Positions 52,326-58,336 of a DNA stretch of 64,000 bases are shown piece after piece. The stretch is from Oxalobacteraceae bacterium. GTDB lineage: Bacteria > Pseudomonadota > Gammaproteobacteria > Burkholderiales > Burkholderiaceae_D. Under the pieces are notes generated by a model. It made no database searches. It saw only the letters and a program-made list of their open reading frames with translations, and was not told the origin of the DNA. Made by a program: the position numbers and the translations under genes. Numbering within the stretch: position 1 is the stretch's first letter; every line of letters starts with the position of its first letter. The stretch covers positions 62,001 to 126,000 of the forward strand of contig JAIXXN010000053.1 of the NCBI GenBank assembly GCA_027490725.1, in the 5' to 3' direction.

Positions 52326-52395
52326 GGGGTCAGATCCGGCAAGCGTACAAAAGTTGGTTTGAGTCAAATTTTGTCCGGATGTCGGATCTGACCCC
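52326..52395. repeat. REP/MITE-like palindromic element
   Basis: Perfect 13-bp inverted ends, GGGGTCAGATCCG and CGGATCTGACCCC, bound a 70-bp unit with a further inner ACAAAA/TTTTGT complementarity, forming an extended hairpin. The GGGGTCAG terminus resembles REP sequences mobilised by TnpA-REP (RAYT) transposases; no such gene is in the window. It sits between ftsY and the MerR-type gene. Confidence 0.7.
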
Positions 52396-52411: not shown

Positions 52412-53344
52412 TTAGCGGCCGTGGCGCTGGCGCCAGTCGGTGATTGCGCTCTGGAGGTCGCTCAGGGAGTAGACCCGGACGTAAGGGGGGCGGCGGCGTT
52501 TCAGGGCGACGTTGCTGCCGCCGGCCCACAGTTCGGCGTGGCCGGCCAGTCGGGTATGCAGTTCGGCCAGGCCATCGAGGGCCTGACGGGGGTTCATGGC
52601 GACCGAGAAGGACAGTGCGATGATGTCGACGCGCTGCGCGGTGGCCGCTTCGACGATGTCGATCAGCGGTGTCTGCACGCCGAGCGAGATGCAGTGGGCG
52701 CCTTCGGCTACGCACATGGCTTCGGCCATCAGCAGGCCCAGACCGTGGCGCTCCTGCGGCAGGGTGGTCAGCATGATGCGCGGTGCGCCCTGGCTGTTGC
52801 CGTTGGCCTGGGGCATGGCGAAGATGGCGCTGCGCATCACCACCGTCAGCGATTCCGTGTACAGGTGTTCTTCGAAGGTGGCCAGAATGCCGCTAGCCCA
52901 GGCTTCGCCGATCAGCGCGGTGAGCGGGGCAACCAGATCGATGACGAAGCTTTTCAGGCCCATCATCAGCAGCGCTTGCGAGAGCTTGCGGCGCAAGGCT
53001 TCCATCTGGTGGCTCTTGCACAGATCTAGATAGGTCTGCAGTTCCGGCGCAGGCACCGAGGTGGGTTTGACGCGGGTAGCCTGGCCCGTCAGTGCCTGCA
53101 GTTCCTCGGCACTCTGCTGGATGATTTTGCTGGGGCGAAAGCCGAGGTCAATCAGCCGCTTGACCAGACGCAATTTCTGCACCTGCTCCTGCGGGTAGAT
53201 GCGCTCGCCATTGGGATCACGCAGCGGCTGCGGGAAAGCATAACGCCGTTCCCATACCCGCAAGGTCTCCTTGGCAACGCCGGTATCGCGTTCCACGTCA
53301 CTAATTGTGCTCAGCGCTAGTGGTGTATTTTCTCTATTTATCAT
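52412..53344 (-). CDS. MerR-family regulator with B12-binding (CarH/LitR-like) domain
   Basis: A 310-aa transcription factor. Residues about 10-75 form a MerR winged helix (TISDVERDTGVAKETLRVWERRYAFP). A four-helix bundle (about 98-180) contains the motif W149-x9-E159-H160, and the next domain begins with E198-R-H-G-L-G203, the ExHxxG motif that binds cobalamin in CarH, LitR and CarA. These residues are the known determinants of B12-dependent, in CarH light-dependent, repression. I chose ATG 53344 since it gives the usual N terminus; a longer in-frame start at 53407 adds an unlikely cysteine-rich stretch. No photolyase, carotenoid or cobalamin gene is adjacent, so its targets are unknown. Confidence 0.85.
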   Translation of the reverse strand: MINRENTPLALSTISDVERDTGVAKETLRVWERRYAFPQPLRDPNGERIYPQEQVQKLRLVKRLIDLGFRPSKIIQQSAEELQALTGQATRVKPTSVPAPELQTYLDLCKSHQMEALRRKLSQALLMMGLKSFVIDLVAPLTALIGEAWASGILATFEEHLYTESLTVVMRSAIFAMPQANGNSQGAPRIMLTTLPQERHGLGLLMAEAMCVAEGAHCISLGVQTPLIDIVEAATAQRVDIIALSFSVAMNPRQALDGLAELHTRLAGHAELWAGGSNVALKRRRPPYVRVYSLSDLQSAITDWRQRHGR

Positions 53345-54377
53345 CAGGCTACGGCAGCCCCTTTCTATTGGTGGCCGCCAGAGTTGGCACAGGGTCCGGG
53401 TGCACAACGCGCTAGGTCACGCCGGATAACGCGACCAGCATTCTACATTCGATTGATGCTGCTCAGTATGGCACGCCCCTCGCAAGTTGTCTGCGCCGAT
53501 GCGTGGAAAACTGCTTGTCCACGACATGTCCGAGGCATCCTGAATGTACGGGGTGATTCTGCTCCGCGTGGAAAATTTGTCATAGACAAAATATTTTTTC
53601 CAGGAAAGTTTGCTGGCCATCCTAGAACTGTTGTTTTGTTAGTCGGCTATGCTATGAAACAAGTTTAAAAAACATATATCGTTAATTTCTGCAATGATTA
53701 AGCGTGCAACTGTTGCGTAAATGTCACAGGTAGCAATTACTTACAAATTGCTGATGCGCCGCAACACCTCGCACTGTTAGCTGAATTTCATTCAGTGATA
53801 TTACGTTTGATGATGAATATAGTTGGTATTAAGCCCCAATTCCCCGTTTAAATCGCTGAACTTTCTGCGGAGTTGTAAGCTTATTACCAATTAGTCGAGG
53901 CCGTTATGGGCTGACTCCGGTATAAAATGTGCAGGTTAATAGCAATGTCGCTATTTTCACTTGGTCCGACAACAGTGCCTGAACCGTAAGGGGCGGGCAG
54001 TATGCAAGGAAGAAATCGGGCGGAGCCTCCGGGCTAGTTGGCTGGATCGGCAGGAAATATTGCGATGCGGTAAAATGCCGACGTTTTGAGATTCTGGCAA
54101 GAGTAATCAACGGCAATCTTTGGCGTTGAACTCTTGATAGGCAAGCAAAGCATCAGTATAGTGCCGCCTCCGACGCGTAGACCGCGTTGCGATAAAGCCA
54201 GCGGCGACCGTATCGGCCGCATTTAAGTGAACGCGTAGCGTATCCCGCTATGCACTGTGGCAGCTGGGGAGTTTGCCCTCACAAATACACGGCGCCTTAT
54301 TCGGCGTCGAAAAGCACCGAACATGCCGTAATACTAGCTTTACCTTTTTACAGCTACACAACTGAAGGAAACACGTT
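53345..54377. other. Gene-free stretch upstream of the porin gene
   Basis: I see no supported gene in this 1 kb. It becomes AT-rich from about 53580 to 53900, and the short open frames in it lack ribosome sites and normal codon use. A moderate promoter candidate for the porin is TCGAAA (54307-54312) with TAATAC (54329-54334), spaced by 16 bp. GAAGGA precedes the porin ATG. Confidence 0.6.
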
Positions 54378-57933: not shown

Positions 57934-58273
57934 GAAGCAAGTCAGACAGTCGCTGGCCAGTGCGTAATGCCTGGCGGGAGGAAGGTCCGGACACCATAGA
58001 GCGGGGTGACGGTTAACGGCCGTCCGCTGAAAGCTGTAAGCGCAAGCCCAAGGTATAAGGCGAGGAATAGGGCCACAGAGACGAGCGTATTAAGTTACGG
58101 TGAAACGCGGTAACCTCCACCTGGTGCAATTCCAAATAGGCACGCGATGATGTGGCTCGCGGAGCGTGCGGGTAGGAAGCTTGAGCGCTGGAGTAATTCA
58201 GCGCCTAGAGGAATGGCTGTCATAGCGCAGGTTCGCCTGTGCCGTAACAAAATCCGGCCTATCGGCTTGCTTC
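57934..58273 (+). ncRNA. rnpB: RNase P RNA, bacterial class A
   Basis: The catalytic RNA of RNase P, which trims tRNA 5' leaders. The 5' end GAAGCAAGTCAGACAGTCGC and the 3' GCTTGCTTC pair to form helix P1. The conserved blocks GGGAGGAAGGTCCGGAC, ACAGAGACGAG-type J/P segments, the AGGGTGAAA-like GGTGAAACGCGGTAACCTCCACC and the late GAGGAATGGCTGTC are all present in order. The length of 340 nt is typical of class A molecules. The start and end are set by the P1 pairing. Confidence 0.95.
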
Positions 58274-58336
58274 AACTAATTTACAGTGCGCGGCTGGCGC
58301 GGCAAAGGCGTACAGCCCTTTGCCGGGACCACGCCG

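Follow-up and report, generated by a model that had tools for sequence, protein, structure and literature searches.

A CarH/LitR-like regulator with a predicted operator pair, probably orphaned from a putative furan-fatty-acid operon, in an Oxalobacteraceae bacterium

The regulator gene and its surroundings

The window, that is, the whole 64,000-nucleotide stretch of Oxalobacteraceae DNA analysed here, encodes a MerR-type regulator located between ftsY, which lies downstream, and a porin gene, which lies upstream. The gene and the control elements predicted in front of it are the following:

52412 to 53344, minus strand: MerR-B12 regulator gene, 310 amino acids plus stop, protein starting MINREN
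53515 to 53527, no strand assigned: predicted operator 2, TTGTCCACGACAT, one mismatch, regulator-side copy; 12 of 13 positions conserved in the five-member window clade
53532 to 53560, plus strand: predicted operon-directed promoter, decayed; -35 GAGGCA, N17, -10 GATTCT
53556 to 53583, minus strand: tentative regulator-directed promoter; -35 ATGACA inside operator 1, N16, -10 CAGAAT; 9 of 12 in a consensus scan
53577 to 53589, no strand assigned: predicted operator 1, TTGTCATAGACAA, exact palindrome, operon-side copy; 13 of 13 positions conserved in the window clade

The protein consists of a MerR head (residues 13-74, approximately), a four-helix bundle (about 100-176) and a Rossmann B12 domain (about 186-308). 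An earlier note, made from the sequence alone, had described a MerR DNA-binding head, the motifs W149-x9-E159-H160 and E198-R-H200-G-L-G203, the ftsY and porin neighbours, and a lack of cobalamin and carotenoid genes nearby, and this description stands: the winged-helix head is recognized by the Pfam model MerR_1 (52.8 bits against a cut-off of 21.6), both motifs occupy exactly these residues, and genome searches with PF02310, RF00174, PF01923 and PF00494 place all other matches outside the window. In a Pfam hmmscan of the protein, the two B12 models fall just below their cut-offs (B12-binding, 31.9 versus 32.1 bits; B12-binding_2, 20.3 versus 23), and in a six-frame search of the genome, B12-binding passes, with 33.6 bits. 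Between the 3' end of the regulator gene and ftsY lies a REP-like element (52326-52395) with the ends GGGGTCAGATCCG and CGGATCTGACCCC, and its 21-base end pattern recurs across the genome, at up to three mismatches, 82 times in the forward and 69 times in the reverse orientation, compared to 2 and 0 for a reversed control. A class A RNase P RNA (57934-58277) is the only Rfam match in the window at the gathering threshold.

No other full-length protein of this kind was found in the genome, where the next-best match is a MerR head with 33% identity. The closest full-length named relatives of the regulator (92%) come from Pseudoduganella danionis and Duganella fentianensis, and the genome itself is that of a Duganella/Pseudoduganella relative. 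Among 304 stretches coding for a relative, the best 80 were used for comparison, with titles largely from Burkholderiales or Betaproteobacteria. Matches were also obtained in 127 of 195 genomes of the same family, many of them through the MerR head alone; at E <= 1e-60, the full-length homologue set comprises 66 matches in 64 genomes. Outside the window, the genome encodes a PduO-type adenosyltransferase, two cobalamin riboswitches and three other B12-domain genes, and a supply of adenosylcobalamin (AdoCbl) appears plausible. As for a carotenoid link, the sole SQS_PSY matches in the genome are an adjacent pair on contig C9, which we take to be hopanoid genes, hpnC/hpnD-like.

Fold and predicted cobalamin-binding residues

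The predicted fold resembles that of CarH. The ColabFold model, based on an alignment of 57 named relatives with the window protein (mean pLDDT 88.5), has photocobilins (Z 18.2-18.7) and Thermus CarH at the top of the comparison with solved structures. In the comparison with CarH that the earlier note had proposed, the CarH B12 domain superposes with Z of about 17-17.7 and 2.2-2.5 Å over about 190 residues, the placement of the pocket residues being taken from the sequence alignment. The top Foldseek matches are full-length CarH chains, at a large rmsd because the head and the tail differ in placement. A domain used in PMC11796333 to contrast with cobalamin-binding ones, the SCHIC domain of AppA, reaches Z 16.6 against the same model, and the fold alone is therefore no proof of B12 binding.

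Conservation of the key residues is nearly complete. W149, E159 and H160 are identical in all 112 aligned sequences and H200 is identical in 110; this alignment includes three copies of the window's own gene, and loci L086-L090 are taken as repeats of L036, L010, L054, L038 and L037, which leaves about 104 distinct relatives. When the window protein is aligned separately with the 57 named relatives, G146, W149, E159, H160, H200 and G203 are invariant. By sequence, too, Thermus CarH is the best match among solved structures (6.4e-26), with W149, E159-H160 and H200 aligned with the CarH Trp, Glu-His and His residues that are numbered W131, E141, H142 and H177 in PMC11796333. In L015 and L016, sister species that both lack the adjacent ufa genes discussed below, residue 200 is Asp, and B12 ligation may have been lost. 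Ala150 of the window regulator takes the place of Thermus His132, the bis-His histidine, and none of the 112 sequences has His there. The weight of this residue is disputed, given that the Thermus H132A variant was first reported to dissociate in the light but was later found to be mostly tetrameric (PMC10442372), and CtMerR responds to light despite having Arg at the bis-His position (PMC11796333).

The published signatures give a graded answer. The Wx9EH motif, as defined in PMC8156234, spans residues 149-160 and is present in 112 of 112 sequences. The strict ExHx2Gx41SxV/Tx22-27GG motif from the same source is broken by Ser247 in place of V/T, with all other spacings and residues fitting; across the alignment, the strict form occurs in 8 and a relaxed form in 109 of the 112 sequences. 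In the light-responsive set of SignatureFinder (GxxW, EH, GxxH, GxxxP; PMC11796333), GxxH is replaced by Q197xxH200 and the other three elements are present; Gly is found in column 197 in just one of the 112 sequences. The NCBIfam equivalog NF052513 gives 128.4 bits against a cut-off of 400, yet is the best NCBIfam match of the regulator (3e-37). Since the regulator departs from the strict motif, lacks one SignatureFinder element and stays below the NCBIfam cut-off, we do not file it as CarH proper. The CarH/LitR-like identity put forward in the earlier note is, however, supported by sequence, fold and residue conservation; of the CarH detail, the cap and ligand residues held up, whereas the bis-His histidine is Ala150 and the strict published signatures each fail at one position. 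In our best reading of the sequence, the regulator would work like CarH, as a member of the wider LitR/CarH group distinct from class II LitR.

A putative operon and paired operators in the relatives

The relatives offer a partner that the window lacks. We clustered the neighbours across the 80 named loci, naming clusters via the Pfam matches of one member each, and found that the regulator is adjoined by a divergent, ufaD-ufaO-ufaM-like putative furan-fatty-acid operon, with ufaD- or ufaM-like genes carried by 47 of the 80. The operon members are an FAD amine-oxidase-like, UfaD-like protein (46 loci), a UfaM-like CMAS (45), MFS_2 (29), a chalcone-isomerase-like protein (10) and DUF3833 (9); glutathione peroxidase (22 loci) and a photolyase-related DPRP gene (15) are also often found in the neighbourhood. 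The UfaO-like DUF1365 protein was counted in 18 of the 80 loci, an underestimate caused by the dropping of overlapping ORFs. Among the 66 full-length homologues, DUF1365 lies within 6 kb of the regulator in 42, elsewhere in 10, and is lacking in 14; 63 of the 195 genomes have DUF1365 but not the regulator, so that the linkage is one-sided. In Rhodobacter, furan fatty acids are made by UfaM, UfaD and UfaO, the last being a DUF1365 protein (PMC7380195). Family membership and gene order suggest that the operon makes furan fatty acids in the relatives as well. In many Burkholderiales relatives, the regulator would control this divergent operon of a furan-fatty-acid/photo-oxidative-stress type. On a quick tree of 41 regulators, in which some long branches are flagged, the operon label must change at least 7 times, and well-supported branches account for 5 of these changes; operon loss therefore looks repeated. 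In five loci without adjacent ufa genes (L011, L014, L021, L025 and L028), a gene cluster of the MCP (chemoreceptor) type is found near the regulator.

Of 76 regions upstream of the regulator, taken from 75 named loci and the window (five loci were excluded because the ORF picker missed their regulator), 44 contain a palindrome, TTGTC-N3-GACAA, whereas in one shuffled set no palindrome rose above 2. In the 75 loci (891,493 bases), the exact palindrome occurs 45 times, in 44 cases no more than 400 bp ahead of codon 20 of the regulator, and 19 half-site rearrangements used as controls yield 0 to 7 copies. Pairs of such sites, 62-64 bp apart and with no more than two mismatches per site, surround the operon promoter in 49 of the 76 regions; given that many loci are close relatives, these counts are not independent. 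In the paired regions, TTGACA (mean 4.7 of 6 matches) follows the regulator-side copy on its inner side at a distance of 4 bp, and in Duganella loci with ufaD, this gene starts 24-26 bp past the other, operon-side copy in five of seven cases, the remaining two being longer ORF calls.

Across the 195 genomes, a search for the 62-bp pair at up to three mismatches is noisy, with matches in 50 genomes and in 31 for the reversed control, and therefore only pairs with at most one mismatch were used. Such pairs occur in 21 genomes: in 19 of them the pair adjoins a regulator gene, in G108 it precedes ufaD at the end of a contig, and in G151 it is unlinked. The unlinked pair of G151 (L178, 4972-5046) is exact, spaced by 62 bp, with TTGACA placed inside as elsewhere; it is located about 1 Mb from the regulator, and some 25 bp separate its end from the probable ATG of a methyl-accepting chemotaxis (chemoreceptor) gene. 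Exact palindromes about 530-550 bp apart are present upstream of the regulator in G128 (L182, 4282-4844) and G151 (L179, 4763-5307); those of G128 lie on either side of a DUF378 gene, with a gene for a fasciclin-domain lipoprotein after the second, which suggests a different set of targets.

The control region in the window

In the window, the ufa operon is absent beside the regulator, and the two operators are retained, exactly 62 bp apart. Within the window clade, only 45% of the positions between the operators and 39% of the 120 bp beyond them are conserved, compared to the 12 and 13 of 13 in the operators themselves; the whole intergenic region averages 71%, mainly via its porin-side half. 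The number of single sites with up to two mismatches in the window does not exceed chance (14 observed versus 18.9). The operon-directed -35 element is degraded in all five clade members (GAGGCA in the window and GAGACA, GAGACA, CAGACA and TAGGCA in the sisters), whereas it reads TTGACA in L009 (D. aquatilis), L017 and L054, all of which retain ufaD. A good TTGACA (mean best 5.6 of 6) also survives in 19 other loci that lack adjacent ufa genes; something may therefore still be transcribed there, and operon loss does not fully explain these loci. A search for a ufaD remnant detected none in the window (z = -0.6), with z of 0.0-2.0 in the four sisters, and found clear remnants in other operon-less species (L014, z 14.2; L011, L019, L024, L026, L029 and L031, z 6.1-9.0). 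The regulator itself is under purifying selection: by a simple counting method, its dN/dS relative to L005-L007 is 0.12-0.13 (for L005 and L006, the compared frame takes in 21 codons upstream of the start), no higher than the 0.15-0.19 relative to operon-bearing relatives; ftsY yields 0.05-0.08 and the porin gene 0.14-0.17.

The earlier note had called the regulator lone, with an unlinked or novel regulon. It is indeed alone in this window, but its relatives have a partner, the ufa operon with its conserved operator pair, and a genome-wide palindrome search, proposed as a check, yielded no second pair at the 62-bp spacing with up to three mismatches elsewhere in this genome, so that an unlinked regulon here is unsupported, although G151 does have a clear unlinked pair. 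The exact operator occurs at four places in the genome, fewer than the reversed control (18), and the three outside the locus lie inside reading frames; the 15-bp form at up to two mismatches is found 57 times forward and 63 times reverse, versus 100 and 111 for the control. No second site at 62 bp accompanies any of the 20 operator-like places inspected among the matches listed, or appears in the 15 regions examined. With exact sites rarer than the control and no partner site at 62 bp, we rejected unlinked targets in this genome. A weak lead is a chemoreceptor gene on C9, a candidate target with a one-mismatch site 73 bp upstream; the site persists in the closest orthologue (89% identical) but is missing from the next two (67% and 46%).

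The genome has a second ufa-like operon, on contig C1 (FAD oxidoreductase, DUF1365, CMAS, SDR, SnoaL, TspO and DPRP), divergent from a TetR gene and with a photolyase gene nearby. Its 19-kb region contains no operator with one mismatch or fewer, and between 7700 and 7900 the only match at up to three mismatches falls on the start of ufaD; control of this operon by the regulator was rejected on these grounds.

It appears likely, with a probability of about 0.65, that the regulator is an AdoCbl-dependent, light-released, CarH/LitR-like repressor that is now orphaned and probably autoregulated; that it binds cobalamin, responds to light, represses transcription and controls its own gene is what we infer from the combined observations. 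In the dark, AdoCbl would be held between His200, as the lower ligand, and Trp149, Glu159 and His160, as the cap over the adenosyl group, and an oligomer bound to the two TTGTC-N3-GACAA palindromes 62 bp apart would block the promoter between them; light would break the Co-C bond and free the DNA. In the window clade, the operon would have been lost from beside the regulator and its promoter would have decayed, with the regulator and both operators retained, most likely, for autoregulation. The regulator-directed promoter, with its -35 element inside operator 1, would fit such a role, although it is weak, its -10 element not being clearly conserved across loci without the operon. Because the only site pair found in this genome is the regulator's own, autoregulation is the best-supported remaining role.

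Several alternatives have to be weighed against this scenario. A B12-independent mode of action, as in CarA or class II LitR (PplR, PmlR), where a short LOV photoreceptor or another partner protein would release the repressor and the C-terminal domain would serve for oligomerisation only, would agree with A150 in place of His132, with the Asp at ligand position 200 in two relatives, and with the fact that class II LitR needs no B12 to govern comparable genes, namely those for photolyase, FAD oxidoreductase and UfaM (PMC9758184). We nevertheless consider it improbable: both B12 domains together with the cap and ligand residues are present in at least 110 of the 112 sequences, whereas class II proteins retain the helical half only, and the class II operator TGTACA-N12-TGTACA is at chance level in the window, where it is represented solely by three-mismatch matches (10 versus 12.2 expected), two of them upstream of the regulator, at 53442 and 53527. 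Nor does it seem probable that the protein is a sensor of AdoCbl supply, a repressor that forms only with AdoCbl and for which light has no natural role. AdoCbl binding would be enough for such a switch, and the genome uses B12, as the adenosyltransferase, the two riboswitches and the other B12-domain genes indicate, but the genes linked in the relatives (photolyase-related, glutathione peroxidase, furan fatty acids) fit photo-oxidative stress rather than B12 metabolism. Most doubtful is a functionless relic on its way to being lost in the window lineage, for which the missing operon, the degraded -35 element in five of five clade members, the lack of a second 62-bp pair in the genome and H200D in two other operon-less species might speak, given that dN/dS is not above that relative to operon-bearing relatives and that both operators have been kept, whereas the DNA between and beyond them has not.

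An extension of the orphaned-repressor scenario is speculative, and we regard it as rather unlikely: the 75-bp operator-promoter-operator module might be a re-usable unit of this branch of B12 light sensors, with the ufa operon repeatedly lost in Duganella and the module put to other uses, such as the chemoreceptor gene of G151, the window orphan representing one stage of rewiring. If so, B12 and light would steer chemotaxis in the G151 case.

Relationship to known systems

The open-access literature (titles, abstracts and matching terms, with subscription papers largely outside) yielded no B12-type LitR/CarH beside ufa genes, nor the combination of such a regulator with both ufa genes and paired palindromic operators. 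The furan-fatty-acid pathway has been studied in Rhodobacter chrR (anti-sigma) mutants (PMC7380195), and in Pseudomonas, ufaM is controlled by LitR regulators that work without B12 and are linked to LOV proteins (PMC9758184); the system proposed here would join B12 photoreception to furan-fatty-acid synthesis. It further offers a delimited DNA module of 75 bp and a naturally occurring relative of CarH whose bis-His position is taken by Ala; in close species with and without the operon, the fate of a regulator after the loss of its target can be followed.

The Vibrio cholerae MerR protein (VCA0056) is comparable as a MerR regulator that acts on blue-light genes and has a photolyase encoded alongside it, but the parts of PMC5241685 that describe it give no B12 role and propose a response to ROS. 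The class II LitR proteins (PplR1-3 of Pseudomonas putida and PmlR1/2 of P. mendocina) resemble the proposed window repressor in being MerR-type repressors of a light-induced set with photolyase, FAD oxidoreductase and ufaM, but are without the second B12 domain, act through a short LOV protein and use the operator TGTACA-N12-TGTACA (PMC9758184), whereas the window regulator has both B12 halves by Pfam, motif and fold. CtMerR of Chloracidobacterium (8JBS, 8JBT) shares a MerR-family B12 domain without the bis-His histidine, a domain that in CtMerR responds to light and has Arg at this position (PMC11796333), and is matched by both sequence and fold, yet is just 17-20% identical over the aligned domain. 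Thermus thermophilus CarH (5C8D, 5C8E) shares the MerR head, the helical bundle and Rossmann B12 domain, the Wx9EH cap and the lower-ligand His, and differs by His132 in place of Ala150 and V/T in place of Ser247. The operators found here form a pair of palindromes, whereas those of known CarH proteins are typically 11-bp direct repeats, nAnnTnnACAn (PMC8156234), and whereas CarH is tied to carotenoid genes, the family of the window regulator is tied to ufa genes.
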